A program made the translations under genes and the position numbers. Below are positions 15,161 to 36,668 of a DNA stretch of 64,000 nucleotides, one piece after another. The DNA is taken from contig NZ_VYQF01000001.1 of assembly GCF_008710285.1 (NCBI RefSeq), forward strand, positions 1,187,501 through 1,251,500, written 5' to 3'. Within the stretch, counting starts at the first letter, position 1, and each line of letters begins with the position of its first letter. The notes beneath the pieces are model-generated. The model made no database searches. It had not been told where the DNA came from and saw only the letters and a list, made by a program, of their open reading frames with translations. The DNA is from Ginsengibacter hankyongi. Lineage in GTDB: Bacteria > Bacteroidota > Bacteroidia > Chitinophagales > Chitinophagaceae.

Positions 15161-16003
15161 TCATTTCAAATCCTTTACTGGGCATACATCCATGTCTCCA
15201 TAATCCAAATTTTCACCTGCCATGCCCCAGATAAAAGTATAATTAGATGTGCCTGCGCCCGCATGAATGGACCATTGGGGCGATATTACCGCTTGCTCAT
15301 TTTGCATCCAGATATGTCTTGATTCCTGCGGCTGTCCCATAAAATGGCAAACAGATTGTCCTTCCGGAATTTCAAAATAGAAATATACTTCCATCCTACG
15401 GTCATGTGTATGCGCAGGCATGGTGTTCCATACGCTGCCTGTTTTCAATTCAGTCATACCCATTTGTAATTGACAGGTTCCTATTACGGACGCTACTAAT
15501 AGCTTGCTGATCGTCCTTTGATTCGAGTTTTCCAAAGAACCTAACGTTACCGTTTCGGCTTCTTTTTTTGTAACCTTTTTAGTAGGATATTTCTGATGGG
15601 CTGGCGCAGAATTAACATAAAATTTTGCCGGATTTGATTTGTCTGAAGAAGAGAAAGTAACCTTCCTGGTTTCTTTCCCAATGTATAATGCTTCTTTTAG
15701 ATCCAGCGTATACGATTCGCCGTCAGCTTCTACAGTACCCTTACCACCTACATTGATAATTCCAAGTTCTCTCCTTTCTAAAAAATAATCAGCTTTCAGA
15801 TTACCAGGATTAGGAAGTTCGACTGCTTCATTAACGGGCATTATGCCACCGGTGATAAACCGGTCATAAAAAGATAATGTCAGTTGCACCGTGTCTTCTT
15901 TAAAAATTTTTTCGACTAAAAAATTGTCACGCAATTCGGATGTGTTCATTCTTGACACTTCTGCAGGACTGCATGCATTCCTGCTTTCAATATTTCCGCT
16001 CAT
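15161..16003 (-). CDS. kduI: 5-dehydro-4-deoxy-D-glucuronate isomerase
   Basis: KduI isomerises 4-deoxy-L-threo-5-hexosulose uronate to 3-deoxy-D-glycero-2,5-hexodiulosonate, in the cytoplasm. The 280-residue bicupin is within a few residues of the Escherichia coli enzyme. Zinc ligands H198, H200, E205 and H247 (M-P-A-H-T-H-D-R-R-M-E and W-S-I-H-A-G) are all present, each shifted by two from E. coli numbering, which also supports the chosen start over an internal Met at 19. The next enzyme, KduD, is not in the window. Its presence with KdgF shows that the island's lyases make unsaturated uronates that the cell catabolises. It is in an operon with the GH105 gene. Confidence 0.95.
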   Translation of the reverse strand: MSGNIESRNACSPAEVSRMNTSELRDNFLVEKIFKEDTVQLTLSFYDRFITGGIMPVNEAVELPNPGNLKADYFLERRELGIINVGGKGTVEADGESYTLDLKEALYIGKETRKVTFSSSDKSNPAKFYVNSAPAHQKYPTKKVTKKEAETVTLGSLENSNQRTISKLLVASVIGTCQLQMGMTELKTGSVWNTMPAHTHDRRMEVYFYFEIPEGQSVCHFMGQPQESRHIWMQNEQAVISPQWSIHAGAGTSNYTFIWGMAGENLDYGDMDVCPVKDLK

Positions 16004-18578: not shown

Positions 18579-20459
18579 TCATTCCAAAGATGACAGCCGC
18601 ACCTTGATGGTTCCTTTTTTATCCGGGAAAATGTAAGCCGGAATTCGAATCTCCACTCTTTTAAGGTTTTCAATCTTCTTATCTAATTTCAAAGGTGGCG
18701 GATCCATCATGATGGTTGACACTCTCACATTATCCGGTGAAAGAATTTTAAGAGCCAGTTGTTTGCCATCCTGTTTAAGGATTGCGCCATCCGCGGAGGG
18801 AATCACTTCAGCCGTTGTCATAATAGCCCAGGTAAGCAATTTTGTCGAATCACCCAGTTGCAACTGGTCTTCAATTGTTATTGAATGATCACTGTCTTTA
18901 ATAAATTTTCGATGAGCAGCTTTCAAATGTCCCTCATAAATTTGCGACATGTCTATTGAAGCTTCAGGATTATTGCCTGCTCTAAAATCAACAATGGGAG
19001 CATAGCCTTTTACATTGAACAAGGCATCATCGATTGTGAGCGTACTATGCCCGAAATTACCTTTCGTCAAAAGCGTCCATCGCTGACAATTCTGGCACAT
19101 GTCCCACAAGTTAAATCCTGCGTGTTCCAAATCGTTGTAGTCTTGTGTGCCGGGATCAACCACCCATCTCACGCCGTTAAGTTCAAAAACAAAACTCCCG
19201 GCATCCATATTTCCATGATTATTGGAAGCGCTTCCTCCCTTACCTCCAAAATAATAATTTTCCGGATCGTCTTTCTTTCCCCGAAATATAACAACAGGAT
19301 TTGGGCCGTCGCCTTTCCAGGCTAGAGGGAGATCGGTAGAATCTTTAGGTTGAAACTCTGACAGCCATATCAATCCGGGGCCTGCCAGGCGAGGCAACTT
19401 GCCCATGGCCGGCGGTGATTGCATAAATTTTTCTTTCTCGAGGTAAATCGGGTTGCCGGTCTCTTTAGCGAACCAGGCCAAGGTAACGTCTCCATCGTTG
19501 CCCGGTTTATCACCGCAATCAGAAAAATTGAAATACCAACCAGAAGGCGCAACGCTTAGCAGCCTGAAATTGGCGCTTTCAATAAAGGAAGGATAATTAG
19601 CGATTCCAAAATCAGTTCCAAAAGCACTTTCTAACATAGATGAAGTGGTAACAGAAAAGCTGGTGCCATATCCCCAGTAAGTGGCTCCTTCAGGATAAAC
19701 GCCATCAGGGCTGTATTGTTTTAAAGCATTGGGCATTCCTTCCAATGCACGGCTGATTGTTTTAGCTGCCAGCTCAGGATTTTTATCAGCAATAACAATT
19801 GCCGCGGCAATCATGCCGCCATTACAAACCTGGTTCCAGTTATGAGGCGCTGTAACCCATGATGGCTGCTGGTTTTCATTAAAGCTTGGTTTTATTCCTT
19901 TTTCTATAAGTGAATTCTTCGCCAGTTCAACGGTGGCTTTAGGTAATGCATTACCCGTCCAATCTACGGCGATTGCTACTGCCAAAGACAATTCGGCAAC
20001 ATCTAGAAAGTGTGCAGGATGCCAGTCGGAAAAATTGCAGACTGCTATTAACTCATCATTGATTCGTTTCAGTATTTTAGGGTCTTTTTCCATCCGGTAA
20101 ACCATTGACAGAATAGTCATCCTGTATAACATTTCCCGGGAAGTCGCCAGTAATCTTCGCCCAATTAATGTTCGTGTAAGCAACGGCTTCGTAAGAATAT
20201 CCGCCGCATTCAGTTTTATAGCCTCATAATAGTTTTTTACCAGGGGATCAATTTTAATTTTCTTTTTAAGATTTATCTCAATAGCCGGCGTAAGAATCAG
20301 GCGGGGAGACGATTTTTTTAATTTGGACTTAATGTACTGAACCGTAATTGGATTGTTGAGTTTAACCATTTCATCACCACTTTTTACATGTTCCTGGGCT
20401 TGTATTTTTGAAATAAATATGAAACTAATGAAAGCCAGGAAAACAATATTATTTCTCAT
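18579..20459 (-). CDS. heparinase II/III family lyase (first copy)
   Basis: Exported 626-residue protein, signal peptide about 1-22. The N-terminal (alpha/alpha) toroid (about 45-380) starts with S-P-R-L-I-L-T and contains A-P-H-N-W-N-Q-V-C-N-G-G-M (H206) and Y-P-E-G-A-T-Y-W-G-Y-G-T-S-F (Y261/Y264), which match the catalytic His and Tyr regions of heparinase II-like enzymes. The C-terminal beta-sandwich (about 390-620) has G-S-A-S-N-N-H-G-N-M-D-A-G-S-F and D-P-G-T-Q-D-Y, the Hepar_II_III signature. Such enzymes cleave uronic-acid linkages by beta-elimination in heparin, heparan, alginate and other glycans. Closest to the PL21/PL12 side by motif; family number is a guess. Likely co-transcribed with the second copy upstream (62-base gap). 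Confidence 0.8.
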   Translation of the reverse strand: MRNNIVFLAFISFIFISKIQAQEHVKSGDEMVKLNNPITVQYIKSKLKKSSPRLILTPAIEINLKKKIKIDPLVKNYYEAIKLNAADILTKPLLTRTLIGRRLLATSREMLYRMTILSMVYRMEKDPKILKRINDELIAVCNFSDWHPAHFLDVAELSLAVAIAVDWTGNALPKATVELAKNSLIEKGIKPSFNENQQPSWVTAPHNWNQVCNGGMIAAAIVIADKNPELAAKTISRALEGMPNALKQYSPDGVYPEGATYWGYGTSFSVTTSSMLESAFGTDFGIANYPSFIESANFRLLSVAPSGWYFNFSDCGDKPGNDGDVTLAWFAKETGNPIYLEKEKFMQSPPAMGKLPRLAGPGLIWLSEFQPKDSTDLPLAWKGDGPNPVVIFRGKKDDPENYYFGGKGGSASNNHGNMDAGSFVFELNGVRWVVDPGTQDYNDLEHAGFNLWDMCQNCQRWTLLTKGNFGHSTLTIDDALFNVKGYAPIVDFRAGNNPEASIDMSQIYEGHLKAAHRKFIKDSDHSITIEDQLQLGDSTKLLTWAIMTTAEVIPSADGAILKQDGKQLALKILSPDNVRVSTIMMDPPPLKLDKKIENLKRVEIRIPAYIFPDKKGTIKVRLSSLE

Positions 20460-20521: not shown

Positions 20522-22477
20522 TTATTTATGAATTTTATATGTAATTGAATGATTAAGACTGTGATCTTTAGCCGTCAATAATATGCGCCAAATATCCCTG
20601 CCATCCCAGGAGTGCTTTAAACCCTCATCCTCCGGTGTTACAAGGGCCATTTTTTCTTCACTGATATTCCAGAAAGTGGCATTATAGTCTAAATAAACTC
20701 TTGTTTGATCAGGCAGATTGAAAACAATTTTTCCTGGCGTGGTAATATCTGCATCACATACAGACATTAAAGTTTGAGTAAGATTGTTGAGATGCGAAAC
20801 CATTGCATAACTATCATTAACTTCCACTACTCCTTTCTTCTTATCCATTTTTACGCGGCGTTTCCAACTCATAATACCTGCATCCGCAGGATAAGCATCT
20901 TTAATATTCATGCTTAATTGCGACGTATTTTTTGTTTGCTGATAGCTCACATCCGAAGCTGCATGTTGGCGTCCCTCTTTTTGTTCCACATTATTAATTG
21001 TGGGTAAATTATGGTAAGGCGATGTATTGAACCAAAGTTTGTACCTCTGTTTTGAGAATGTTCTGGCCGTATAAGTTCCTGATCCTATGTCAATAATTAC
21101 GGGGTAACCATTTACATACACCATAAAATCTCCAACATCATTATGGTTGTGGCTTTCTCCATTGTTGCCTGCATGGGAAGCAACGAAAACCCTATTGCCG
21201 GAACGGGCTGCCATTAATTGCACATCGCTGTACCAAACATCTGTTGCAAGATCTTCTTTATACGGATAAGCTGCACATTCTTTTATTGCCTTAAGGTTAT
21301 AAAGACTTCGTGGGCGCTGGAAACCTTCCAGGCCAAGGCCATTATTTCCATAAGTATGAAAAGCCCATGAGCCCATGTTCATCATATCTTTATTATTCAC
21401 ATCTTTGCCAAACCTGTAGATCAGCAATCCGTTTGCTTCTATCTCAGGATGAGCATCGGCAACATTAATAAAATACTTGCCGGCAATGTGGGTCTTATAA
21501 ATATATGCTCCCATCTTTTCAATAAAAGGGTCCTTATAGATGTCGTATTTGCGGCCTGTGGCATCATAAAGTAAATTCAATGCATCATATACACTTGCTC
21601 CGGCCGCATTCCAATAACCGGGGCCTTCATCACAACCGCCGTCAGCACCCAGTCCGTTTATATATTGATTAATAATTCTGACAGCAATGTTCAATGCATG
21701 GGTTCTTTTAGCTTCATCTTTTTCTATTAACAAATCAGCAGTTATATAATTGGATGCAATCCATGGCGCCCAGTTATTTAGTTTAGCGTCGGGATTATCG
21801 CCGCCCATCCATCCATATTTTGCAGTGAGCATTGGCGTTAATATTCTCCTGTTAATTTCATAGCTTATTCGTGGGCGCAACAATTTGGAAACGGCATCTA
21901 ATTTAGGGCCCACGAAGTAATCGGTCCAGGCCAACACAGCGCCGGTTTCTGCAGAGAACAGATCCACTATCGGGTCTTCTACATCGGGAAGTCCCGCTCC
22001 TGCTTTTTGAATACCCACATGAGCGCTTATCCCCCAAAAACTTTCTTCACAGATCGACCATATTCCATTTACTATCTGATCTATAAATCTTCCTTTTCCT
22101 TCCATTGATTCGGCCATCACCATGTCCCAAAGTTGATTTCGCTTTTGAAAAGAAATTTTCTCATAATTTGTGCGATTATTATTGCGTATAAATTCCAGCA
22201 TTACTGTGGCAGGTATCTCTTGAAAATCTTCTTTCAATGCCTTCTCGCCATTCGTGATGATATGCGCTATTATGGAATCTGGTAATATCCTTTTCCACCC
22301 GCCTGGTGTTTGAGGAAATGGTTTAAATTCTTTCTGTGGAATAAGAGATTGAGTCAGGGGCTGTATAAACTCTGGTAAAAGATCGCGGTGAGTGATCTGC
22401 GCTTTTGTGCTTAATGCCCCCGAAATAGTAACTAAAAAAATAAAGTAGGTATAAAAGCGTCGAAAATAATTTCTCAT
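20522..22477 (-). CDS. heparinase II/III-like protein (second, divergent copy)
   Basis: Exported 651-residue protein, signal peptide about 1-27. Same two-domain plan as its neighbour but with little obvious sequence identity. The helical domain contains K-L-N-N-W-A-P-W-I-A-S-N and G-C-D-E-G-P-G-Y-W-N-A-A-G-A-S. The beta domain contains E-S-H-N-H-N-D-V-G-D-F-M-V-Y-V-N-G and I-D-I-G-S-G-T-Y, the heparinase II/III metal- and substrate-site region. The H-N-H-N-D pattern is found in lyase families recently split from the heparinase group (for example PL33), but I cannot assign a number. It is separated from the PL5/PL38-like gene by 472 bases, so it may start a transcript. Confidence 0.78.
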   Translation of the reverse strand: MRNYFRRFYTYFIFLVTISGALSTKAQITHRDLLPEFIQPLTQSLIPQKEFKPFPQTPGGWKRILPDSIIAHIITNGEKALKEDFQEIPATVMLEFIRNNNRTNYEKISFQKRNQLWDMVMAESMEGKGRFIDQIVNGIWSICEESFWGISAHVGIQKAGAGLPDVEDPIVDLFSAETGAVLAWTDYFVGPKLDAVSKLLRPRISYEINRRILTPMLTAKYGWMGGDNPDAKLNNWAPWIASNYITADLLIEKDEAKRTHALNIAVRIINQYINGLGADGGCDEGPGYWNAAGASVYDALNLLYDATGRKYDIYKDPFIEKMGAYIYKTHIAGKYFINVADAHPEIEANGLLIYRFGKDVNNKDMMNMGSWAFHTYGNNGLGLEGFQRPRSLYNLKAIKECAAYPYKEDLATDVWYSDVQLMAARSGNRVFVASHAGNNGESHNHNDVGDFMVYVNGYPVIIDIGSGTYTARTFSKQRYKLWFNTSPYHNLPTINNVEQKEGRQHAASDVSYQQTKNTSQLSMNIKDAYPADAGIMSWKRRVKMDKKKGVVEVNDSYAMVSHLNNLTQTLMSVCDADITTPGKIVFNLPDQTRVYLDYNATFWNISEEKMALVTPEDEGLKHSWDGRDIWRILLTAKDHSLNHSITYKIHK

Positions 22478-22949: not shown

Positions 22950-24140
22950 TCAGTCTTCAAAAAGCAAATGAATGAGCACATTGTTGTCAGGCGGTGTAAT
23001 GCTATTTGTTTCAGTACGATACGACGGTTGTTTAAATTTATCAGCGGCGGTAATCAGCAGTGGATATAATTCAACATTATTGTATTTAACTATTTGCTTG
23101 TAATCCCATTTTTTTTCATCCAGAGCATAAGGTATTATCCAATCGAGAATAGTTTGTAATCCTGTGCCGTTCACATTCTTATAATGCCAAAGATCTACAC
23201 CCGACTTTTCTGCAAGCGACGCAAGCGTAAATAGTGCATCCAGGTTGAAAGTACTATACCCAAGAGCATTTGTTCTTTCAAGTTCTAATGGCATTTTTCC
23301 TTCACTCGTTATTTGCCTATCAATTTCGTCTCTTCCCTCCTCCGATAATTTGAGTGCTTCCGATTTATTCCCTGTGAATAATGCATAATCTATGGCCTGA
23401 ACCAGAAACCATGTCCCGTGATTGTTTTGTGCAGTGTGCTCGTCATTGCCATTTTTACTTGTAAGCATCCAGTTTAAAAATTGAGCATACCAATCTTGTA
23501 ATGATTTCGTGTCTGAATTTGTCCACGCTTTTGAGTTAGCAAGAAGTCCGGCCGCGTCAGCGATACCGGTAAGGGAGCGGGTTTCAATAATGCCTATTCC
23601 TCGGCCATTATTTTTCCCGGGAATAGCTTGAGCATAGTCGAGGTTAGGGTTCATCTTAAAATCTTTATCAAAGAACCAGTGTTTCAACAAAGAAGCTGCT
23701 TTACCGGCATATTTTTCTTCTCCGGTTAAATAATACGCAAGCGATAAAATCTGTGTAGCGTTATCAAGATCTGATAAATATTTATGATCAGTAATTTTAT
23801 AGATTTCAGGATTGCGTTCGCCATCTTTTCTCATGTAGGGTAAACCGTTAGGTTTAGTACTGTCATACCAAAAATATGGGGCGAGGCTCATATAATCATG
23901 TTTGTTACCGCTTGCAGGAACGAAACTTTTATCCGTTACAGAAATTAATTTCATGTCAAGTAATTCATCAGCCGGCTTTTTTAATTTATCAACTAATATT
24001 ACCGTTTCCTGATCGCGTTGCTGTAATTTATTTTTTATTGTTTGCAAATGACTTCCGTTTAAGATAAACACGTTTGGTTGTGCACTTACATCTATCAATG
24101 TCAGTATAAAAAAGAGGTTCATCAAAAATCTAATTGCCAT
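22950..24140 (-). CDS. alginate-lyase-fold protein (PL5/PL38-like)
   Basis: Exported 396-residue protein, signal peptide about 1-20. The single alginate_lyase (alpha/alpha) domain shows the active-site asparagine and histidine in Q-N-N-H-G-T-W (N240, H241) and the R-T-x-x-x-x-Y-S motif (R289, Y295), matching the Asn/His/Arg/Tyr set of A1-III-type lyases. P-Y-F-W-Y-D-S near 89-94 and D-N-A-T-Q-I-L-S-L-A-Y-Y-L-T-G are also family features. PL5 enzymes act on polymannuronate; the related PL38 members act on glucuronan. In the company of a PL8 enzyme the glucuronan-type reading is at least as likely as alginate. It is divergent from susC and the first gene of the minus arm. Confidence 0.82.
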   Translation of the reverse strand: MAIRFLMNLFFILTLIDVSAQPNVFILNGSHLQTIKNKLQQRDQETVILVDKLKKPADELLDMKLISVTDKSFVPASGNKHDYMSLAPYFWYDSTKPNGLPYMRKDGERNPEIYKITDHKYLSDLDNATQILSLAYYLTGEEKYAGKAASLLKHWFFDKDFKMNPNLDYAQAIPGKNNGRGIGIIETRSLTGIADAAGLLANSKAWTNSDTKSLQDWYAQFLNWMLTSKNGNDEHTAQNNHGTWFLVQAIDYALFTGNKSEALKLSEEGRDEIDRQITSEGKMPLELERTNALGYSTFNLDALFTLASLAEKSGVDLWHYKNVNGTGLQTILDWIIPYALDEKKWDYKQIVKYNNVELYPLLITAADKFKQPSYRTETNSITPPDNNVLIHLLFED

Positions 24141-24259
24141 GTTACAGGTTTTAAAGTTTTTAAAATTTATTAAAATAATTTATAATTATAGAAGCGAGAA
24201 CCTTATTAGTTGGCAGCAAAATCTAAAGTTGTTTTATTCAATATATGCCTTGTATAAAC

Positions 24260-24291
24260 TTTGTAATCAAAGATTTGCCGATATAAATTTG
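24260..24291 (+). promoter_or_regulatory. predicted susC operon promoter
   Basis: TTTG at 24260-24263, 20 bases, then TAAATTTG at 24284-24291, the best promoter match in the window. Transcription would start near 24298, with a leader of about 140 bases. Confidence 0.6.
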
Positions 24292-24306
24292 CGCTTTTTT
24301 GTTGAC

Positions 24307-24316
24307 GATAATTATC
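24307..24316. promoter_or_regulatory. candidate operator in the susC leader
   Basis: GATAATTATC is a perfect 10-bp palindrome just downstream of the predicted transcription start. A related palindrome, TGATAATATCA, lies at 33398-33408 upstream of the LacI gene. It is a plausible repressor site; AT-rich palindromes also occur by chance. Confidence 0.3.
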
Positions 24317-24438
24317 AATACAAAACTTATTATTGCGACAACGATTTCGTGAATATTTCTTTCCAATATGAAAATGATTTAAGGTTTTTTTAGTAGGTTC
24401 GTTTTGTCCTCCTTTTTTATACTACAAAACGATTGCTT

Positions 24439-27400
24439 ATGTTACTAACTAATTTTGAAAGAATAAAAATTCCCTTATTTGCTTCGAAACTGATCTGTGT
24501 GTTAATCTTCATACCGCTATTGTCCTTAGCCCAAACGAAGACGATTTCAGGAACTGTAACAGATGAATCGGGGAATCCATTATCAAACATTTCAGTGGTT
24601 ATTAAAAATGGCACCGGCGGAACGGCGACCGATGCAAAAGGCCACTACCAGTTGAACGCTTCAACTGGTTCGACGCTTGTTTTTACTTCTGTCAATTATG
24701 AAACGGTTAATATTTCTGTTGGTAACAAGAGTGTTTACAATATCAGTATGAAACCCGAAAACGGGGGTATGGCCGAAGTTGTTGTGGTCGGCTACGGAAC
24801 ACAAAAGAAAGTAAATCTCCTGGGTTCTGTAGGTACAGTAAATGTTGACAGTAAGATTACCGGCAGGGCTCTGCCAAATATTTCGGAAGGGCTTACGGGC
24901 TTAGTACCAGGCCTGGCAGCTACTCAATCGAGCGGGATGGCAGGCAGGAATGGAGCATCACTTCTGATCCGTGGTTTGGGAACGCCCAATAACAGTTCCC
25001 CGCTGATTGTTGTTGACGGAATACCGGACGTTGATATAAATAGAGTAAATGTAAATGATATTGAGACTGTCTCAGTATTGAAAGACGCTTCATCTGCTTC
25101 GGTATATGGTTCAAGGGCGGCCAATGGCGTAATATTAATTACTACAAAATCTGGTAAAGGAATGAATAAAACCGTGTTGAATTTCAGTTCCAATACCGCA
25201 CTTGAAACACCTACAAAGGGTATCGACTTCCTGGCGAATTACCCGCTCGCTTTAACTATAGAACAGCGCCGATCTGCTACCAACACACTTCCCTCCAACC
25301 AGCTCTATAAAAATGGCACCATTGATCAATGGATGGCGCTCGGAATGATCGATCCACTGAGCTATCCCAATACAGACTGGTGGAATATTATTATGCGGGA
25401 TGGTAGACTACAGGATTATAACGTATCTGCTACGGGCGGCAATGACAAATCTAATTTCTTCGTTTCAGTAGGTACAAAAATTGAAAATGGTCTTCAGATT
25501 AAGAACGATTACAAACAGTATAATGCGCGATTCAACTTCGACTATAAATTACGAAGTAATATGAATACAGGTGTAAAGTTTAATGGCAACTGGTCTAATT
25601 TCACGTATGCGCTTGAAGAAGGATTTACAGATCCCGCTTCTACCAATACCGCAGGTTTTGATATGCAATATGCCATTGCCGGCATTACACCTTATGATCC
25701 TGCAACTGGTTTATTTGGCGGTGTAATGGCTTATGGGGAAGACCCACAGGCCTATAATCCCTATTCGCAATATATAAACAGTCCCAATCATCAAACCCGC
25801 CAGGAAGTTAACGCAACTGCCTATTGGGATTGGACGCCGATTACAGGACTCACCGCTGGTTTGGACTATAATATGATTTATTATAACCAGTTTAACTGGA
25901 GTGCGCCTACACCGGCCCAGGCATTTAATTTCCAGACAAATGCATATGGAAGCCGTGTGTATGTGGGTCCGAACGCTCCCGTCTCCAATACCAATTTAAA
26001 TGGCTATAAAACCTTAATGGATGCACGCGTAAATTACCATACCAAATTTGGAAGTAATCACGATCTCTCGGCGGTGTTCGTATACAGCGAAGAGTACTGG
26101 AACGATCGCTCGCTTGGAGCTTCCAGGAATGACCGCCTCGCACCGGGTATCACAGAAATTGATGGAGCGCTTCCTAATGTATATTCAAACAGTGGTAGTT
26201 CAAGTGCCGAAGGGCTTCGGTCTTACATCGGCCGGGTAAACTATACTGCTTATAACAAGTATTTACTGGAAGGTGACATGCGTGTGGACGGTTCTTCCAA
26301 ATTTGTTCCGGGCCAGCGGTATGGATATTTCGGCTCCGGTGCTGTGGGTTGGCGTTTCACCGAAGAAGAATTTTTGAAGCCCTTTCTAAGCAAGTTTTTG
26401 TCGAGTGGTAAGCTCCGCGCTTCATATGGCGGCTTAGGCAACAACAGTGGGGTAGGCCGATATGAACAGCAGACTACACTGACAGCCAATAATTATATGA
26501 TAGGGGGAACGGGGGTCATTGGCCTTGTAAACAACAAATTGATCAACCAAAGTTTATCCTGGGAATCTACTAATGTATTTGATCTGGGATTGGAACTTGG
26601 ATTTCTCAACAACAGGTTGACTTTTGAAATGGATTATTATGATCGTTTAACAAAAGGCATCATACAAGGTTCGCAATTATCAATCCTCTTGACAGGTGCA
26701 TTCAGCGCTCCCAATACCAATATCGGTAATATGCGCAATCGTGGCGCAGAGCTTACAATGGCATGGAGAGATCGCATAGGCGCTGTTAATTATGGGGTAA
26801 GCGTAAACGGGTCTTATAACAAGACCAGGTTGGAAAAATGGAGTCAGCTGCTGACTCGAGGTGCGACCTACAGCGGCAATACCGTGTTTATCGATATGCC
26901 CTATGATTATGTATATACTTATGTAGATAATGGCATTGCCCAAACATGGGCTGATATTTATAAAAATACGCCACAGGGTGCACAACCAGGTGATTTGCTT
27001 CGCAAAGACCTAAATGGTGACGGGAGAATTGATGGCAATGACGAAAAAGCATTGCAGGCTTCGCGTAACAGGCCAACTACCAGTTATACGTTGAATGCAT
27101 ATGCGTCCTGGAAAGGTATAGACATTGGCATGTTATGGACCGGGACAAGTGGTCGTAAAGATTTCTGGCTAAACGCGTTTAACAATGTAAATTTCAGTAC
27201 TTCGCGTTATGCAGTTAACCAGCAGGATGTAACAAACCCCTGGTCTGTTGAAAATCGGGACGGTGAATGGCCACGTATTGGAGGGAGTGGCAATAATACG
27301 GCCCAGACTACTTTCTGGCTAGATGATATGAGTTATCTACGATTAAAAAATCTGCAACTTGGGTATACATTTCCTAAACCGTTATTCAAAAAGATAGGTG

Positions 27401-27546
27401 TCACTAATTTCCGCATTGCGGGATCTGCTGAGAATTTGTTAACCATTACTTCTTACCGTGGTCTTGATCCGGAAAAAGCAGGGAACAACAACAATCTTTA
27501 TCCACTTAATAAAGCCTATTCACTCGCTGTTCAGCTCAGTTTCTAA
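24439..27546 (+). CDS. SusC/RagA-type TonB-linked outer-membrane transporter
   Basis: Outer-membrane TonB-dependent channel that imports oligosaccharides as a complex with SusD. The 1035-residue length is typical. I use the ATG at 24439. After the signal peptide (ending S-L-A-Q, about residue 32) comes a carboxypeptidase-regulatory-like domain (about 36-110), a V-V-V-G-Y-G-T-Q-K-K segment that leads into the plug (about 115-235, with L-I-R-G and the S-V-Y-G-S-R-A-A-N-G-V-I-L-I-T-T motif), then the 22-stranded barrel to the C-terminal phenylalanine. There is no STN domain, so it is not expected to signal to an anti-sigma factor. susD follows immediately. Confidence 0.93.
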   Translation: MLLTNFERIKIPLFASKLICVLIFIPLLSLAQTKTISGTVTDESGNPLSNISVVIKNGTGGTATDAKGHYQLNASTGSTLVFTSVNYETVNISVGNKSVYNISMKPENGGMAEVVVVGYGTQKKVNLLGSVGTVNVDSKITGRALPNISEGLTGLVPGLAATQSSGMAGRNGASLLIRGLGTPNNSSPLIVVDGIPDVDINRVNVNDIETVSVLKDASSASVYGSRAANGVILITTKSGKGMNKTVLNFSSNTALETPTKGIDFLANYPLALTIEQRRSATNTLPSNQLYKNGTIDQWMALGMIDPLSYPNTDWWNIIMRDGRLQDYNVSATGGNDKSNFFVSVGTKIENGLQIKNDYKQYNARFNFDYKLRSNMNTGVKFNGNWSNFTYALEEGFTDPASTNTAGFDMQYAIAGITPYDPATGLFGGVMAYGEDPQAYNPYSQYINSPNHQTRQEVNATAYWDWTPITGLTAGLDYNMIYYNQFNWSAPTPAQAFNFQTNAYGSRVYVGPNAPVSNTNLNGYKTLMDARVNYHTKFGSNHDLSAVFVYSEEYWNDRSLGASRNDRLAPGITEIDGALPNVYSNSGSSSAEGLRSYIGRVNYTAYNKYLLEGDMRVDGSSKFVPGQRYGYFGSGAVGWRFTEEEFLKPFLSKFLSSGKLRASYGGLGNNSGVGRYEQQTTLTANNYMIGGTGVIGLVNNKLINQSLSWESTNVFDLGLELGFLNNRLTFEMDYYDRLTKGIIQGSQLSILLTGAFSAPNTNIGNMRNRGAELTMAWRDRIGAVNYGVSVNGSYNKTRLEKWSQLLTRGATYSGNTVFIDMPYDYVYTYVDNGIAQTWADIYKNTPQGAQPGDLLRKDLNGDGRIDGNDEKALQASRNRPTTSYTLNAYASWKGIDIGMLWTGTSGRKDFWLNAFNNVNFSTSRYAVNQQDVTNPWSVENRDGEWPRIGGSGNNTAQTTFWLDDMSYLRLKNLQLGYTFPKPLFKKIGVTNFRIAGSAENLLTITSYRGLDPEKAGNNNNLYPLNKAYSLAVQLSF

Positions 27547-27559
27547 AATTGCTATAGAT

Positions 27560-29422
27560 ATGAAAAAGATAAAACTCATTTCACCAATATGCATTATGAT
27601 GGCATTCGCTGTTGGCGCCGTCCTGCCGATATCGTGCCGTAAAGGTCTGCTCGATCAAACACCTACAACCAATCCATCACCTTCAACTTTCTGGAAGACA
27701 GAGTCAGATGCTACGTCAGGGCTTTTAGGACTATATGCGGCAGTAAGGCCTTGTTTCGATCGGGATTACTATTTCGATGGCCAGTCTGAATATTTCAGAT
27801 GCAGGGGAACAAGCACAACGTCCGGCAATCTACAGAAAGGGGACGCATACAATGGAGGCAACTATAACCCGACCGGATACGGTGCTTCATTTGATAAGAT
27901 GTTCCGTGATCTTTATGGTGCCGTTGATCGTGCAAACTATGTGATTGACAACGTTACAAAAATGCAGGCATCGGGTGGTTCACTTGCTACTTCAAACGTA
28001 CTGCAAACAATCCAGGGAGAAGCACGTTTGCTCCGTGGACTGGTTTATTTCAGATTAATTTGCATGTGGGGTGATGTTCCTTATTACACCATTTCGCCTA
28101 ATAAAGACGCTGATGTGAACTCTTTGCCACGAACACCAATCGCCCAGATTAAAGATTCCATCCTCGCCGATTATACCTATGCTTTCAATACACTTCCGAC
28201 CACTGCTTCGGCATTGGGGAGGGCCTCGAAAGTAGCAGCCCTTGCCTTGCGCGGGAAACTCGAATTATACTGGGGTTCCTGGAACAAAAACGGTTGGCCC
28301 GAGCTAGAGGGATTTAATTCCAGCGCTGCAGAGGCTACTACAGCCTTTACTGCTGCTGCCGCTGATTTTGATTCTGTCATAAATAATTATGGCGTCACTC
28401 TGTATATGGGTGGCGATCCGGGACAGATTGATGCATTGGGCAAGGCCGATGTGTTACCCAACTACTATACGTTATTTACGCCCAAGGCTAATGGTAATTC
28501 TGAAATGCTTATGGTGTTTACACATGGTGGTACTGGCACAGGTCAGGGCGAAGAATTGATGCGCGACTTTGCAGGTCGTTCCCATGAAGGCTCGCAATGC
28601 TGGGTATCTCCACGATATGAGATAGCCGATAGATATCAGTCAACAGTTACAGGTGACTTTGTTTCGCCATTGATTCCCATGAACCCTACCGTTCCGGCCA
28701 CTGGAAATGTAGCAAGGACCACACCGGGTTCAGCGGTTAATCCTAATAGTTATGCAGATCGCGATTACCGGATGAAATCAACCCTAGAATGGGATTATGA
28801 AGTAAGTATTGGGAGCGCCTCACAAGTATCTACAGGTTTTGTACCATTTATTTATAAGACATGGGCCGGCAGGGTGAATATTGGGGGCGTTAATTACCTT
28901 ACGTACAATACGGACGGATGTAATTCTGGATATGTGTTTAGAAAATTTGTACGGAATTATGCCGGGCAGGGGCGTAGCGATGGAGATTTCGCATGGCCTG
29001 TTATACGGTTGGCAGACGTTTACCTAATGTATGCCGAAGCAACCAATGAAATAAACGGGCCGCAAGCTGACGCCATCGATCTTGTAAACAAAGTACGCCA
29101 TAGGGGCAATTTGCCGCCTTTGGACGCATCTAAAACTGGCGGCTACCAGGATTTTTTCAATGCTATTGAACAGGAAAGAATTGTAGAACTTATCGGGGAA
29201 GGTCAACGTTCTTTTGATCTTCGGCGATGGAGGGCACTCGAGAGAGTTTGGGGACCTCCGGGGAGCCCTGGTGTATGGCGTATTGATACTTGGGGAGCCA
29301 ATCAACAACGATATTTTCAGAACACTTCTGAACTTGAATATCAACAAGATTACATTTTTCGCATACCTCCAAGCGAACGGGATAAGAATCCTAATCTGAC
29401 ACAAAATATTCCATGGAGATAA
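27560..29422 (+). CDS. SusD/RagB-type surface glycan-binding lipoprotein
   Basis: Surface lipoprotein that caps SusC and delivers glycans to it. The frame is open further upstream inside susC, but the ATG at 27560 starts a clear lipoprotein signal with lipobox P-I-S-C (Cys26) and gives 620 residues. SusD features include the early D-Q-T-P-T-T-N-P-S-P-S-T-F-W-K-T segment, the tetratricopeptide-like helices (about 70-320), R-L-A-D-V-Y-L-M-Y-A-E-A, the E-R-I-V-E-L-I-G-E-G-Q-R-S-F-D-L-R-R-W motif near 560, and the C-terminal I-P-P-S-E-R-D-K-N-P-N-L-T-Q-N. It starts 13 bases after susC. Substrate is unknown. Confidence 0.93.
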   Translation: MKKIKLISPICIMMAFAVGAVLPISCRKGLLDQTPTTNPSPSTFWKTESDATSGLLGLYAAVRPCFDRDYYFDGQSEYFRCRGTSTTSGNLQKGDAYNGGNYNPTGYGASFDKMFRDLYGAVDRANYVIDNVTKMQASGGSLATSNVLQTIQGEARLLRGLVYFRLICMWGDVPYYTISPNKDADVNSLPRTPIAQIKDSILADYTYAFNTLPTTASALGRASKVAALALRGKLELYWGSWNKNGWPELEGFNSSAAEATTAFTAAAADFDSVINNYGVTLYMGGDPGQIDALGKADVLPNYYTLFTPKANGNSEMLMVFTHGGTGTGQGEELMRDFAGRSHEGSQCWVSPRYEIADRYQSTVTGDFVSPLIPMNPTVPATGNVARTTPGSAVNPNSYADRDYRMKSTLEWDYEVSIGSASQVSTGFVPFIYKTWAGRVNIGGVNYLTYNTDGCNSGYVFRKFVRNYAGQGRSDGDFAWPVIRLADVYLMYAEATNEINGPQADAIDLVNKVRHRGNLPPLDASKTGGYQDFFNAIEQERIVELIGEGQRSFDLRRWRALERVWGPPGSPGVWRIDTWGANQQRYFQNTSELEYQQDYIFRIPPSERDKNPNLTQNIPWR

Positions 29423-29458
29423 ATTTTGTTATCATAACCAACAAATAATTTAGAAAAG

Positions 29459-29863
29459 ATGAAAAAAAATATAACGATAGCATTAGCAATTCTGTTAGCA
29501 ACCGTCACCTGGACTTCCTGTAAGAAACATGCACCGGTAGATGAAGATGGATTACTCATTACAACACGCAGAGATTGTTATGTAAGCAATTTCGAACTGC
29601 TGGGAACCGATTTTGTAAGCGTACGTGTTGGCGCTCCAGTTATTGATACTACCGAGCAGACTGTAAAAGTAACTGTGCAATTCGGAGCCGACCTTAAAAA
29701 TTTATATCCTCAATTCACGCTTGCCCAGGATTGCAAACTTGATCCAAAGATCACCGGGTTAACAGATTTTTCCGATACACTTAACCATAAAAAATGGACG
29801 GTAATTTCCGGAGATCGTAATGTGAAAAAGACTTATAGTGTTATTATCAGTGTTCAACCATAA
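29459..29863 (+). CDS. small lipoprotein in SusE position
   Basis: A 134-residue protein with a lipoprotein signal (W-T-S-C, Cys21) and one beta-rich domain of about 90 residues ending in K-T-Y-S-V-I-I-S-V-Q-P. The pattern, including F-G-A-D-L-K-N-L-Y-P-Q-F-T-L-A and W-T-V-I-S-G-D-R-N-V-K-K-T-Y, resembles immunoglobulin-like DUF5018-type domains of Bacteroidota surface glycan-binding proteins. By position between susD and another lipoprotein it may bind the polysaccharide at the cell surface or act as a spacer. I do not recognise a specific family with certainty. Confidence 0.6.
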   Translation: MKKNITIALAILLATVTWTSCKKHAPVDEDGLLITTRRDCYVSNFELLGTDFVSVRVGAPVIDTTEQTVKVTVQFGADLKNLYPQFTLAQDCKLDPKITGLTDFSDTLNHKKWTVISGDRNVKKTYSVIISVQP

Positions 29864-29892
29864 TAATGATTATTAATATTAAATAAAATACG

Positions 29893-30894
29893 ATGCAACC
29901 TAGATCTAAATATATTGGTTATGCTTTTTTACTAATGATTTCATTAGCATTTTTTACTTCCTCATGTAAGAAAGATTCATACGCTCTTCCTGTGGCTTCT
30001 GATAAGCTGCAGAACCAGGCTATTAAAAGAACCCTCGGTCCAAACATCGTGGGACAGCAGATAGAATTTGCTTATGCTATGGCAATTCTTCCTACCAAAG
30101 GGAAGTTGACATCTTGTGTAGCCGAAGCGTCCATTGCCGGAGCGCCTGGTACTTATATGGAAAATAGATCTTTCCATACTGCCCAAACCGGAGCAGATGT
30201 TGGTGACTCAGTGGGATCACCTTCTGTAACAAGTGGCACAACAACAACGGTCACCTATACTGTTGATACCTCTGCAGCTACCCTTCGTTATTATTATGTA
30301 ATACCTGAGGAAGCCCGCGGCAAAACGGTAACCATTAAGTTTACAGCTACCAGCAGCGATGGAGAAAGTGTGTCAACAACCATGGGCCCTTATACAATTG
30401 CTCAAATGGATATGAAGCTAAATATGAAAGTGAGCAACAACAATATGATGTATATTTCGATTGGTGATAGTACGGTATATAACGCGACCGATGCTGCTGC
30501 CCACGCTGCCAACATCGACCTTGTTTATGTCTATCGCAATCGGCCTAACAGTGCTTTTAACCATGCGTTGGTCGCACCGGCTGCAGATACTCAATATCTT
30601 CCTGGTATAATTTTGCCAACGGGTGTAAACCGTACCGCCAAGCTACTTAAAACATTCAACCTGCAGGATCATAACCTTGCTCCAAATGAACAATATGGTG
30701 GCATTTTCATAGACGATATAGATTTTCAAAAACTTGACCTGGCAGGAGCTCCGAACTATGCCATTAATCTAAAACAGGATGCAGGGGTATGGGTTGAAAC
30801 GGCTGATGGAAAATACAGGGCTTATATCTTTTTTAATTCTGTAAGTAGCTCGGGAACTGCTGTTATCAGTATGAAAAGATATGCTTTAAAATAA
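29893..30894 (+). CDS. surface lipoprotein, DUF4466-like, probable glycan-binding protein
   Basis: A 333-residue protein with a lipoprotein signal (T-S-S-C, Cys25) followed by K-K-D-S and beta-rich sequence. Residues ~45-170 look like an Ig-type fold and ~175-330 like a second beta domain containing Y-V-Y-R-N-R-P-N-S-A-F-N-H-A. The arrangement and length resemble DUF4466 lipoproteins, which are found in SusC/SusD operons. It lies 29 bases after the preceding lipoprotein and 27 before the lyase fusion gene, so it belongs to the same transcript. A surface glycan-binding role is inferred from context only; the family name is a moderate-confidence guess. Confidence 0.6.
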   Translation: MQPRSKYIGYAFLLMISLAFFTSSCKKDSYALPVASDKLQNQAIKRTLGPNIVGQQIEFAYAMAILPTKGKLTSCVAEASIAGAPGTYMENRSFHTAQTGADVGDSVGSPSVTSGTTTTVTYTVDTSAATLRYYYVIPEEARGKTVTIKFTATSSDGESVSTTMGPYTIAQMDMKLNMKVSNNNMMYISIGDSTVYNATDAAAHAANIDLVYVYRNRPNSAFNHALVAPAADTQYLPGIILPTGVNRTAKLLKTFNLQDHNLAPNEQYGGIFIDDIDFQKLDLAGAPNYAINLKQDAGVWVETADGKYRAYIFFNSVSSSGTAVISMKRYALK

Positions 30895-30921
30895 ATTGCA
30901 GTTGCAGAAGCAGCGAACCTT

Positions 30922-32988
30922 ATGGAAAAATTTCACCGATTAATTATTCCGCTGTTAATCTCAGGAATAGTTGCCTGCTCTTCATCTAAAATATTTGCAC
31001 AATCTTTTATTCACCCGGGCATTGATCAGACTTCAAGGGACCTGGCTTTTATGAAAAAGATGGTCGTTGCTGGCAAGCAGCCATGGAAAGGAGCGTTCGA
31101 CAGATTAAAAAATGTGGCGGACACTGGCTTTGTTGTAAAAGCTCACACACATGTATTGAGGGGACCTTATGGGAAGCCAAACATTGGCGGCGATGACCTG
31201 TTAAAAGGCGCTGACATGGCGTATAATTATGCGCTGATGTGGTATATTACCAATGATAAAAATTATGCGGTCAAGGCAATAAACATACTCAATGCATGGT
31301 CCCAAGTCCTTTGGGATTTTGACTATAACGATGCTAAACTGCTTGCCGCCTGGACCGGCCACCTTCTCTGCAATGCCGCGGAAATTCTGCGATATACTAA
31401 CTCCGCATGGGAACGAAGAGATATTAATAGTTTCAGCAATATGCTAATGACGGTATATTATCCGCTGATGCGCTTTTACTATCCGCAAGCTAATGGTAAT
31501 TGGGATGGGGCCATCATTCATTCCATAATGGCAATAGCAGTTTTCACAGATAACCATAAAATGTTTAACAATGCTATTGATCATTTTCTTCATGCTCCGG
31601 TGAACGGAAGTATTTTTAAATACATTTACCCAAGCGGGCAGTGCCAGGAGAGCATGCGTGACCAGGGGCATGTGCAATTAGGATTGGGAGAGTTTGCAGG
31701 TGCGGCGAGAATCGCTTTTACGCAGGGAGTTGATCTTTTTTCTCTTGCTAATAACAGGATTGCATTAGGCTATGAGTATACCGCGGGGTTTTTATTGGGT
31801 AAAGAAACGCAGTGTTATGGGATTATATCTCAACGGGCAAAAACACTCCGCGATGATTACGAATATGTTTATCGTCACTATACTTCACAAGGCGTGGATA
31901 TGCCCAACACCAAAATGGCCGCTGATTCTGTAAGAGACAAAGCTATCCGAAGTGTGCTAACAGCATTCCGTGCATCTCTTACGGAACCAGTTAAGAAAAC
32001 CACCAGCCCGCAAAAAAGCCATATCGGGTATGTAGCAGGAGCTGGCGCAGGCAATTCAGTAACTGTTCCGGGTAATGCTGTTATTGTTAGGAAAGGGCAA
32101 TCAATACAAGATGCCCTTAATACTGCTTCAGCTACAAGCCATTGGATAATGATAAAAGCGGGCATACATATCCTGCCAGCAACCTTAAAAATTCCCAGCG
32201 GCATAACAATATCAGGAGAAGGTTTAAGTACTATACTTTTCCTTGATCCTTCCCCCGGACAAAGAGATGCGATGGTAAATGCGGAAAATGATTTACATGA
32301 TGTAACGATACAGAATCTTGTTATAGAAGGATCTAATAAAACTGATCCTGGTAGCGATCCAAATAGCAGCCGTTCTTATCGGGGCGGTTATAATCGTGGA
32401 GGAATCATATTTCGTGCCTTGAGTGAAGGCCAAATGAAGAATATAAAACTTATCAATATTACGGTTCAGAACTGTACTTACAATGGCGTATTTATAAGTG
32501 GGGGAGAAAACATAACTATTGATGGTTGCAATTTTAATGAGAATGGTGGCAATGCTGTACCTGGCCCTAAGCTTCAGCATAATCTTTTATTAACTCATTG
32601 CACTGATGTTCATATTAAAGATAGCAGGTTAGATACCTCGCCTTATGGCAGTGGAATTACGATAGATCATAATCACGATGTTTCTATTACCAATTGCGAA
32701 ATTGCCCGCAATGGATATTATGGCATTTTAGTTTCAGAATCTAAAAATGTTTTGGTAAAAAATAACTTAATTGAGGCAAATGATCGAAGCGGTGTAATGG
32801 TTGAATTTTTACACAGTGGTTGTGAAAGGGTGAAGATTAATAATAACAGAATTCAATTCAACAATGGGTATGGCGTTGAGACTTATGCAACAAGAAATTT
32901 TGAAATAGATAACAATATTTATTCAGGTAATGGGAATAATGTGAGCCAGCAGAAAATTGGTAGTGAAAAATTTATTATCATGGAATAA
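30922..32988 (+). CDS. alginate-lyase domain fused to a right-handed beta-helix
   Basis: A 688-residue exported protein. The signal region (1-27) could be processed after A-Q or lipidated at Cys19 (G-I-V-A-C). Residues ~45-320 are an alginate_lyase-type (alpha/alpha) domain with N-G-N-W-D-G-A-I and Q-E-S-M-R-D-Q-G-H (R246-H250), the motif seen in this family's secreted members. After a linker rich in T, S and G, residues ~365-675 form a parallel beta-helix with repeated N-I-T-I-D-G-C-N-F, D-V-S-I-T-N-C-E-I and N-V-L-V-K-N-N-L-I turns, as in PL6, NosD and pectate-lyase-like proteins. The two folds may give two activities or a lyase plus a binding domain. Last gene of the susC operon. Confidence 0.8.
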   Translation: MEKFHRLIIPLLISGIVACSSSKIFAQSFIHPGIDQTSRDLAFMKKMVVAGKQPWKGAFDRLKNVADTGFVVKAHTHVLRGPYGKPNIGGDDLLKGADMAYNYALMWYITNDKNYAVKAINILNAWSQVLWDFDYNDAKLLAAWTGHLLCNAAEILRYTNSAWERRDINSFSNMLMTVYYPLMRFYYPQANGNWDGAIIHSIMAIAVFTDNHKMFNNAIDHFLHAPVNGSIFKYIYPSGQCQESMRDQGHVQLGLGEFAGAARIAFTQGVDLFSLANNRIALGYEYTAGFLLGKETQCYGIISQRAKTLRDDYEYVYRHYTSQGVDMPNTKMAADSVRDKAIRSVLTAFRASLTEPVKKTTSPQKSHIGYVAGAGAGNSVTVPGNAVIVRKGQSIQDALNTASATSHWIMIKAGIHILPATLKIPSGITISGEGLSTILFLDPSPGQRDAMVNAENDLHDVTIQNLVIEGSNKTDPGSDPNSSRSYRGGYNRGGIIFRALSEGQMKNIKLINITVQNCTYNGVFISGGENITIDGCNFNENGGNAVPGPKLQHNLLLTHCTDVHIKDSRLDTSPYGSGITIDHNHDVSITNCEIARNGYYGILVSESKNVLVKNNLIEANDRSGVMVEFLHSGCERVKINNNRIQFNNGYGVETYATRNFEIDNNIYSGNGNNVSQQKIGSEKFIIME

Positions 32989-33480: not shown

Positions 33481-34569
33481 ATGAGCAATGGACCCACTAC
33501 ATTAAAAGATATTGCAAAAGCACTCAATCTCTCTATTTCAACAGTTTCTAAAGCACTCCGTAGCAGCCATGAAATAAGTTTAGATACACAAAGACTAGTC
33601 GCTGAATTTGCCACACTTAATAACTATCGGCCAAATCCTATTGCACAGGGTTTGCGAAGCGGGCGCACCAAACTCATTGGAGTAGTAGTAACGAATATTG
33701 ATAACGATTTTTTTTCACAGGTTATCAATGGTATCGAATCCATTGCACTTAAAAAAAATTATACAGTAATTATCACGCAGACGCATGAGTCGTGGGAAAG
33801 CGAGATATTAACTGTACAGCATCTATTTTCGCGGGCAGTGGATGGATTGATTGTATCACTTTCTGCTGAAACAGATAATGTTGATCACTTTATTGAACTG
33901 CATGATAAGGGGTTACCTATCGTATTTTTTGATCGCGTAACTGATGAACTGAATACACACAAAGTCATATCAGATAATTTCAACGGTGCCTACGATGCCA
34001 CAGAACATCTTATTCAGAATGGATATAGAAATATTGCACACATAACCAGCTCAAACCATTTGTCTATTACACTGGAAAGACTTGAAGGGTATATTAAAGC
34101 TTTGGAAAATAACCACCTGAAAGTAGACGAAGAATATATTAAATATTGCAGTCATGGCGGCATGATCAAGGAGGAAATTGAAAATGGATTAAATGATTTG
34201 TTATCCCTGCAAAAGCGCCCGGATGCCATATTTACAGCATCAGACCGGATCAGCACCTCAACGTTAAGTTTATTACGCAAAATGGATATAAAAATTCCTG
34301 AACAAATTGCTCTTGTTGGTTTTACAAATTCCTTGTCGTCTGAGATTTTCAATCCTTCACTTACCTCAATTGTGCAGCCTGCTTTTGAGATGGGAAAGGT
34401 TGCTACTGATATGCTCATTGAAATTATTGAGAGTCGAAGGCCCATTAAAAGATTTGAGAAGCGTGTCTTGAATACCAAGTTATTAATTAGGGAGTCTAGT
34501 GCAAGGCAATTAAGAAATCAAGTGGGTTCATCTTCTATTTCACCGACAACTCTATACGCTTCTTGTTGA
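33481..34569 (+). CDS. LacI-family transcriptional regulator
   Basis: A 362-residue DNA-binding regulator. Residues ~5-26 form the helix-turn-helix (T-L-K-D-I-A-K-A-L-N-L-S-I-S-T-V-S-K-A-L-R), followed by the hinge ending in L-R-S-G-R-T-K-L-I-G-V. Residues ~60-340 are a periplasmic-binding-protein-like sensor domain with N-G-A-Y-D-A-T-E-H-L-I and A-L-V-G-F-T-N. It is the only regulator in the island. No hybrid two-component system or sigma/anti-sigma pair is present, so it probably controls the locus in response to a sugar intermediate (inference). Last gene before the right island end. The C-terminal tail of about 20 residues is longer than usual. Confidence 0.9.
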   Translation: MSNGPTTLKDIAKALNLSISTVSKALRSSHEISLDTQRLVAEFATLNNYRPNPIAQGLRSGRTKLIGVVVTNIDNDFFSQVINGIESIALKKNYTVIITQTHESWESEILTVQHLFSRAVDGLIVSLSAETDNVDHFIELHDKGLPIVFFDRVTDELNTHKVISDNFNGAYDATEHLIQNGYRNIAHITSSNHLSITLERLEGYIKALENNHLKVDEEYIKYCSHGGMIKEEIENGLNDLLSLQKRPDAIFTASDRISTSTLSLLRKMDIKIPEQIALVGFTNSLSSEIFNPSLTSIVQPAFEMGKVATDMLIEIIESRRPIKRFEKRVLNTKLLIRESSARQLRNQVGSSSISPTTLYASC

Positions 34570-35234: not shown

Positions 35235-36668
35235 TTACATTGCAGCAAGTTGCACTTTTTGCTGAAGTTCTATTACGCTTTCTTTAAATAAGGTATCTGT
35301 ATCCATTAGATCTTTAACCGTTTGACAGCTATGAATAACTGTGGTATGATCTCTGCCACCAAAATGTTCCCCTATTGTTTTTAATGAATTTTTTGTAAAA
35401 GCTTTTGCAAGGAACATTGAAATTTGCCTTGCCTGAACAATTTCTCTTTTGCGTGTTTTTTGCAACAACTTTTCGTAAGGCACATCAAAATAATCACATA
35501 CCATTTTTTGTATGGTATCAATTGTTATTTCTTTTGATGATGATTTGATAAAATTTCTCAACACTTTTTTAGCTAATTCAAGATCGATTTCCCGTTTATT
35601 TAGCGAAGATTGTGCCAACAGGGAAATTAATGCTCCTTCAAGTTCACGAATATTATTTTGTATATTATATGCAATATATTTTACTACTTCTTTCGGCATA
35701 TCCAGCCCATCGTTCTTCATCTTCCTTTCCAATATTTCAATCTTGGTATCATAATCAGGAATTTGAAGATCGGCGCTAAGCCCCCAGCGAAAACGGCTTA
35801 GTAATCTTTCCTGAACTCCTTCCAGGTCTTTGGGTGGCTTATCTGACGTGAGAATTAATTGTTTACCGCTTTGATGCAAATGATTAAAAATAGCAAAGAA
35901 AGCATCCTGCGATTTTTCTGCCCGGTTAAAAAATTGAACATCATCAATAATCAATACATCTATTAACTGGTAAAAATGTATAAAATCGTTTATAGCATTA
36001 TTGCGGCTGTGATCCACAAACTGGTTAATAAATTTCTCAGAACTTACATACAAAACAACTTTATTGTTGTTTAGTCTTTTTACTTCATTTCCTATAGCCT
36101 GGGCAAGGTGAGTTTTACCCAATCCTACCCCACCATAAATTACCAATGGGTTAAAGGAAGTTGAACCGGGCTTTTCTGCAACGGTTTTTCCTGCACGTCT
36201 TGCTACGCGGTTGCAATCACCTTCAATAAACGCATCAAATACATACACAGGATTTAACTGCGGATCTATCTGCATCTTTTTGAGTCCCGGAATTACAAAG
36301 GGATTCTTAACAGGGTTATTTATAACTAAAGGAAAATCCATTTCGTTATTTGAATATGATTTGTAACCTTGCCCCGGCACGTCCATCATCAAAGGCAAAT
36401 TCTTTCCATTTCCACTATCTACCATTATGCGATACTCCAGTCTCGCATCTTTTCCCAATTCACGCTTTAAAGTTTTAGCAAGAAGATTTACATAATGCTC
36501 TTCAATATACTCATAAAAAAACTGGCTTGGCACCTGGATAGTTAATACATTACTTTTTAACAAAACAGGTGTAATTGGTTCGAACCAGGTTTTGTAATGT
36601 TGCCACTCCACTATATCCTTTATAATATTGAGACAATTATTCCAAACTGTTTCGCAAGCCTTATCCAT
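35235..36668 (-). CDS. dnaA: chromosomal replication initiator protein DnaA
   Basis: Initiator ATPase that binds the origin and opens DNA. The 477-residue length is normal. Domain I occupies residues ~5-80. The AAA+ domain has Walker A G-G-V-G-L-G-K-T (179-186) and Walker B V-L-I-I-D-D (238-243). Sensor and arginine-finger regions follow (R-L-L-S-R-F-R-W-G-L). Domain IV ends with the G-G-R-D-H-T-T-V-I-H-S-C DNA-binding signature. The upstream intergenic region shows no DnaA boxes, so this is not evidently the origin. No dnaN or gyrB is adjacent, as is common in Bacteroidota. Two tRNA genes follow on the same strand. Confidence 0.97.
   Translation of the reverse strand: MDKACETVWNNCLNIIKDIVEWQHYKTWFEPITPVLLKSNVLTIQVPSQFFYEYIEEHYVNLLAKTLKRELGKDARLEYRIMVDSGNGKNLPLMMDVPGQGYKSYSNNEMDFPLVINNPVKNPFVIPGLKKMQIDPQLNPVYVFDAFIEGDCNRVARRAGKTVAEKPGSTSFNPLVIYGGVGLGKTHLAQAIGNEVKRLNNNKVVLYVSSEKFINQFVDHSRNNAINDFIHFYQLIDVLIIDDVQFFNRAEKSQDAFFAIFNHLHQSGKQLILTSDKPPKDLEGVQERLLSRFRWGLSADLQIPDYDTKIEILERKMKNDGLDMPKEVVKYIAYNIQNNIRELEGALISLLAQSSLNKREIDLELAKKVLRNFIKSSSKEITIDTIQKMVCDYFDVPYEKLLQKTRKREIVQARQISMFLAKAFTKNSLKTIGEHFGGRDHTTVIHSCQTVKDLMDTDTLFKESVIELQQKVQLAAM

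Follow-up and report, generated by a model that had tools for sequence, protein, structure and literature searches.

An Alginate_lyase toroid joined to a parallel beta-helix in a probable GAG-type utilisation locus of Ginsengibacter hankyongi

The locus and the fusion gene

The stretch of Ginsengibacter hankyongi DNA analysed here (64,000 nucleotides, hereafter the window) contains an intact ORF on the forward strand (30922-32988, +), which starts with ATG and encodes a protein of 688 aa. Pfam matches, AF2 models and full-length orthologues divide this protein into a signal peptide, an Alginate_lyase toroid with the motif RDQGH and a parallel beta-helix, and it is referred to as the fusion protein hereafter. 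Its gene is the last of a block in which the genes for a SusC-like TonB-dependent transporter (24433-27546, +) and a SusD-like protein (27458-29422, +), both identified by Pfam scan, are followed by those for a 134-aa putative lipoprotein with no Pfam match (29459-29863, +) and a DUF4466 putative lipoprotein with the lipobox FFTSSC (29893-30894, +). These two lipoproteins, which are present in every complete fusion locus, are candidate surface glycan-binding proteins, and this role is likely for the DUF4466 protein, whose solved relative, 4ei0, is itself unnamed. A LacI-type regulator is encoded at 33481-34569 (+), and the polysaccharide locus is directly adjoined by a gene (35235-36668, -) that, from the look of its sequence, we take to encode a DnaA-like replication initiator.

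On the reverse strand, the block is accompanied by a series of genes for polysaccharide breakdown. These are a PL38-like lyase whose NNHG and R..Y active-site motifs are intact (22950-24140, -); a PL33-like heparinase II/III lyase (20522-22477, -), closest to the solved 8r6z and 8r75 (372 bits to 8r6z); a PL35-like GAG lyase (18579-20459, -), closest to 8khv GAGase II (388 bits) and the PL35 chondroitinase 9o3q; a PL8 lyase (16106-18265, -), closest among solved structures to chondroitinase AC (339 bits); a KduI-family isomerase (15161-16003, -); and a 728-aa fusion of GH88, an unsaturated glucuronyl hydrolase, with DUF4861 (12952-15138, -). The DUF4861 part of the last protein matches a separate 447-aa protein at another locus (L119). 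The window holds the combination of SusC and SusD, GAG lyases (PL8, PL33-like, PL35-like) and GH88 that characterises a GAG-type utilisation locus. None of the 24 sulfatase matches in the genome falls in the window.

Domains and conserved residues

The fusion protein was divided as follows. A Sec/SPI-like signal peptide ending in AQ, recognised by sequence comparison, covers residues ~1-27 (30922-31002, +). The toroid domain, containing N193-W-D and E243..R246-D-Q-G-H250, covers residues ~28-345 (31003-31956, +) and was delimited from Pfam, hhalign, the PL5 profile and conservation; a variable linker, seen from conservation, occupies residues 346-384 (31957-32073, +); and the parallel beta-helix, delimited from AF2, Foldseek, PDB profiles and conservation, covers residues ~385-670 (32074-32931, +). 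Among nine orthologues, invariant columns make up 41% of the toroid (28-345), 10% of the linker (346-384) and 23% of the helix (385-688). An earlier reading made from the sequence only had proposed a secreted protein in which an alginate-lyase toroid (~45-320) is joined to a beta-helix (~365-675). The joining of the two folds in one chain is confirmed by Pfam, AF2 with Foldseek, profile searches and nine other intact loci, and the limits of the two regions are refined to those given above.

The final location of the protein is likely to be the periplasm, judging from its two ends. The orthologue N-termini mostly carry AQ-type SPI sites and share no common Cys; Cys19 of the window copy is absent from the positions conserved among them, which makes a lipoprotein unlikely. 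The Pfam scan found no T9SS C-terminal sorting domain in the fusion protein, unlike several RDQGH relatives that possess a T9SS tail. The readings as a T9SS-secreted protein or a lipoprotein were thus dropped.

For the toroid, the Pfam family Alginate_lyase (PF05426) matches residues 96-295 with an E value of 3.2e-13 and 50.2 bits, well above the cut-off of 22.2. The toroid also aligns with PL38 by hhalign (E 1e-9) and with the PL5 A1-III profile over the toroid core, the conserved Arg included (E 2.5e-5). The AF2 models were built from 3-4 alignment rows taken from the window and related loci (three rows for the full-length model), and because these rows are few, the toroid is modelled weakly: its pLDDT is about 35 in the full-length model and averages 52 in the domain model. 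Foldseek with the domain model still ranks PL17, BoPL38, PL5 A1-III and BACOVA_01668 first, at marginal E values of 2e-3 to 1e-2. The toroid fold stands, supported by homology more than by the model, and the RDQGH toroid is remotely related to PL38, PL5 and PL17.

The motif itself is present at residues 246-250, as the sequence-only reading had stated, but it is not the motif of the characterised alginate lyases, since PL5 and PL38 carry NNH plus R...Y. When 18 RDQGH toroids joined to a variety of partners are compared, no change is seen at H31, P32, G33, A116, W163, G229, R246, D247, H250, Q268, D271, N278 or E285, and hardly any at N193, E243 or Q248; the invariance of this set next to so many different partners indicates that the toroid site is under selection. 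In the hhalign alignment with PL38, N242 corresponds to N193, R292 to R246 and H243 to W194. The catalytic histidine of NNH is therefore absent, its position being taken by W194, and no conserved Tyr follows R246 in the toroid alignment. The catalytic residues of PL38 are H243 and Y298 of BoPL38 (PMC13169297). The RDQGH toroid cannot be assigned to that family by these two residues; the alignment of H250 with Y298 is uncertain by a few residues. Nor does it carry the full PL5 set known from A1-III (the His of NNH, an Arg and Tyr246): the Arg is kept, and the His and Tyr are lost. The placement of H250 varies with the alignment: hhalign sets it on Y298 of BoPL38 whether the template row is the H297N mutant (9fi1) or carries the wild-type H297, HMMER sets it one residue before the Tyr of PL5, and hhalign against PL5 gives yet another placement. 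H250 would thus lie at or beside the canonical Tyr position, an ambiguous placement from which we claim no exact equivalence. With W194 in place of the His and without a conserved Tyr downstream of R246, the known PL38/PL5 mechanism cannot run unchanged, and lyase activity should not be assumed for an RDQGH subfamily devoid of the canonical His and Tyr.

For the helix, the Pfam family Beta_helix (PF13229) matches residues 507-665 (E 5.6e-19; 68.7 bits against a cut-off of 25.9), and NosD matches residues 556-670. The AF2 strands E387-E668 form a parallel beta-helix over residues 387-668, with pLDDT mostly 60-90. The nearest structure in Foldseek is the AlgE4 epimerase (E 1.7e-8), followed by an alginate epimerase/lyase, the RbmB lyase, tail spikes and GH28/GH87 enzymes, and AlgE4 is also the best match in the PDB profile search (1.6e-5). 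On the model and the profiles, the beta-helix fold stands. The invariant helix residues are enriched on one edge, consisting of the PBc strand and the next loop (24/61 versus 18/113; Fisher p 7e-4), and this is the same edge that holds the AlgE4 active site; some of it is taken up by an Asn/Ser ladder, perhaps a structural feature.

Judged by its residues and family matches, no active site of a lyase, hydrolase or epimerase can be recognised in the helix. AlgE-type C5-epimerases are recognised by YG-FDPHE with its Tyr, Asp and His; GYGFDPHE of AlgE4 falls on YYGvLVaES of the orthologue profile, a stretch without the Asp and His. In Pfam and NCBIfam, none of the catalytic beta-helix families scores above its cut-off against the fusion protein, and PL6 (the chondroitinase B-like helix, PF14592) is found neither among its Pfam matches nor anywhere in the genome. 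A GH28-type helix was rejected (the Asp-Asp motif is absent, with no Pfam match above the cut-off), as was a phage tail spike (the PHROG matches to the helix are weak and generic). Binding or positioning is our first choice for the role of the helix, and catalysis is possible.

Occurrence and descent of the fusion

A search for the domain pair across genomes, which the sequence-only reading had proposed, yielded ten further loci, so that the same architecture exists at eleven: the window, nine other intact loci and one split by a frameshift. Of the ten, two belong to metagenome-assembled genomes (L002, L003), seven come from other genomes in a set of 197 from the same family, and one comes from a genome of another family in the same class (G532; locus L112). 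The split copy belongs to genome G141 of the same family (L039:8962-11048, -), where the frameshift divides the gene into frames of 506 and 202 aa; this reflects either decay of the copy or a fault in the assembly. Eight other copies are 55-65% identical to that of the window (alignment A1). Every completely sequenced block has the same gene order, that in the genome of the other family included, and heparinase II/III genes, often with PL8 genes, adjoin the block in the fusion loci.

In the toroid tree, the eleven fusion toroids, including that of the window, group together with a support of 0.88, separate from toroids joined to other domains. This clade suggests that the two parts were fused once and inherited thereafter. 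No standalone close relative of the helix was found in the 197 family genomes. In the plasmid search, no record covers 80% of the query, and the best matches listed cover the toroid only; the scan of viral contigs gave no match. The GC content of window positions 24001-32000 is 0.42-0.43, as compared with 0.35-0.39 elsewhere in the window, and the third-position GC of the SusC and SusD genes is 0.40, as compared with 0.25-0.33 for the surrounding genes. Two genomes of the same genus are without the fusion. This GC shift and these two genomes hint at a possible horizontal acquisition of the locus.

Toroids with RDxxH are also found in other settings. They are common in Bacteroidota and on plasmids of Burkholderia, Rhizobium and Paenibacillus, and are joined to DUF4979, CBM3/6/9/35, ricin lectins, LamG, DUF1349, Ig domains and T9SS tails (L042:3767-8299, L046:7130-10873, L044, L047, L049, L113 and L115). 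In a 1155-aa triple fusion (L116:3891-7355, -), an RDQGH toroid is combined with a GH28-like beta-helix that narrowly misses the Pfam cut-off and with GH88. The RDxxH toroid is thus a widespread module that is annotated as alginate lyase and is apparently uncharacterised. The toroid/beta-helix architecture is conserved, made of known folds and likewise apparently uncharacterised. In the literature searched, no paper was found on the Pfam pair or on DUF4466 with alginate lyase, and no record of the pair was met with.

Function and comparison with known systems

With a probability of roughly 40%, we regard the fusion protein as a two-module product of a GAG-type locus, Sec-secreted and probably periplasmic, in which the helix engages the chain and the toroid cleaves it. 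Hyaluronan-, chondroitin- or heparosan-like fragments would be bound and imported by SusC/SusD together with the two lipoproteins (DUF4466 and 134 aa). The beta-helix would then grip the chain along its conserved edge and hand it to the toroid, which would cut beside glucuronate by beta-elimination; GH88 and KduI would next process the unsaturated uronate. As the most economical mechanism, we propose that R246 and N193 neutralise the carboxylate, and that the invariant H250 serves as base and acid in place of the lost canonical Tyr/His pair. In favour of this explanation are the homology of the toroid, its invariant residues, the one-sided conservation of the helix, and the conserved block with its GAG-type neighbours. 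Against it count the lost His and Tyr, the ambiguous placement of H250, the inactive RiPL8 module described below, the weak toroid model, the lower conservation of the helix than of the toroid, and the possibly structural Asn ladder on the helix edge.

That the toroid is instead a degenerate, non-catalytic scaffold, so that the protein binds or organises the polymer or has its sole activity in the helix, is unlikely. The canonical acid/base residues are missing; RDQGH toroids are joined to many lectins, CBMs and unrelated domains; and the N-terminal Alginate_lyase module of RiPL8, from another GAG PUL, neither cleaved nor bound HA (PMC13027841). However, the active-site-like charged set is invariant across distant architectures, which would be unusual for a dead domain, and RiPL38, which joins 3keto-disac_hyd to Alginate_lyase, degrades HA (PMC13027841); the similarly built protein at L051 keeps E..RDxxH. 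The sequence-only reading, which is supported in part, had offered two activities or a lyase with a helical binding module as alternatives. We consider it rather unlikely that the protein has two activities on the same polymer, with a lyase in the toroid and a further carbohydrate-active unit, be it a lyase, hydrolase or epimerase, in the helix. The best relatives of the helix by fold and profile are indeed enzymes, the charged residues R569, E593, R596, E618, E540 and H553 are conserved on its AlgE4 active-site edge, and the triple fusion at L116 indicates that the pairing of a toroid with a catalytic-type helix recurs; against this stand the loss of the AlgE4 Asp and His, the lack of any catalytic family match above cut-off, and the matches to tail-spike and adhesin helices, which are of broadly similar strength. 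That one protein processes a GAG with two enzymes of its own, an RDxxH toroid lyase of non-canonical, His-based mechanism and a catalytic helix (e.g., a GlcA/IdoA epimerase or second lyase) that converts or cuts the same polymer, is improbable.

As for the polymer, the PL8, PL33-like, PL35-like, GH88 and KduI neighbours and the lack of a sulfatase in the window point to an unsulfated glucuronate-hexosamine polymer, and the substrate is likely of the hyaluronan/chondroitin/heparosan type. PL33_1 is described as acting on hyaluronan/heparosan, and 8r6z and 8r75 are assigned to PL33 (PMC11848413). The surrounding genes point away from alginate, and an alginate locus was rejected as first choice on their identity. 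That the substrate is alginate, as the name of the family would have it, or a different polymer of mannuronate/guluronate is quite improbable: the closest characterised toroids (PL5, PL17 and BoPL38) do act on alginate, and the nearest helix relatives are alginate epimerases, but the neighbouring enzymes are of the GAG type and PL6 is missing from the genome. PL7 also has no match in the genome, although its control search matched nowhere either, which leaves this absence without weight.

In annotation, RDxxH modules are named alginate lyases despite the missing acid/base pair. Lying in a well-defined GAG-type locus and having nine intact orthologues, the fusion offers a tractable case in which to decide between enzyme, binding module and relic for the RDxxH toroid, and it could add a family of beta-helices to those that break down GAGs.

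Several known systems can be set beside it. PL38 (BoPL38, 8bdq) and BACOVA_01668 (3nfv) share the PF05426 toroid, with R292/R246 and N242/N193 aligned; BoPL38 differs in having H243 and Y298, shows ~16% identity and has no beta-helix, and the window contains a separate canonical PL38-like gene (22950-24140) besides the fusion. PL5 A1-III (1qaz) shares the toroid core profile and the conserved Arg, whereas its Tyr246 acid/base and NNH histidine have no counterpart in the fusion, and it was matched as a single toroid domain. The A-module of the mannuronan C5-epimerase AlgE4 (2pyg), the best profile and fold match of the helix, differs in its Asp/His catalytic motif, and the match is remote and of a kind typical for beta-helices generally. 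The Bacteroides HA/CS loci (BT3324-BT3350, BT4410) resemble the window in SusC/D, PL8 and GH88, and the PL33 lyase BT4410 is co-regulated; the available parts of these reports do not mention a toroid/beta-helix fusion, and the window locus differs in its lack of sulfatases (PMC12877422, PMC11848413). In the GAG-PUL of Roseihalotalea indica, whose set of PL8, PL35 and PL38 matches that of the window, the proteins RiPL8 and RiPL38 each join an Alginate_lyase toroid to another domain, the partners being PL8 and 3keto-disac_hyd rather than a beta-helix (PMC13027841). Judged from its sequence, the fusion would be a multimodular uronic-polysaccharide enzyme of the type found in SusCD loci, a known kind in which the domain pairing is the new variation.
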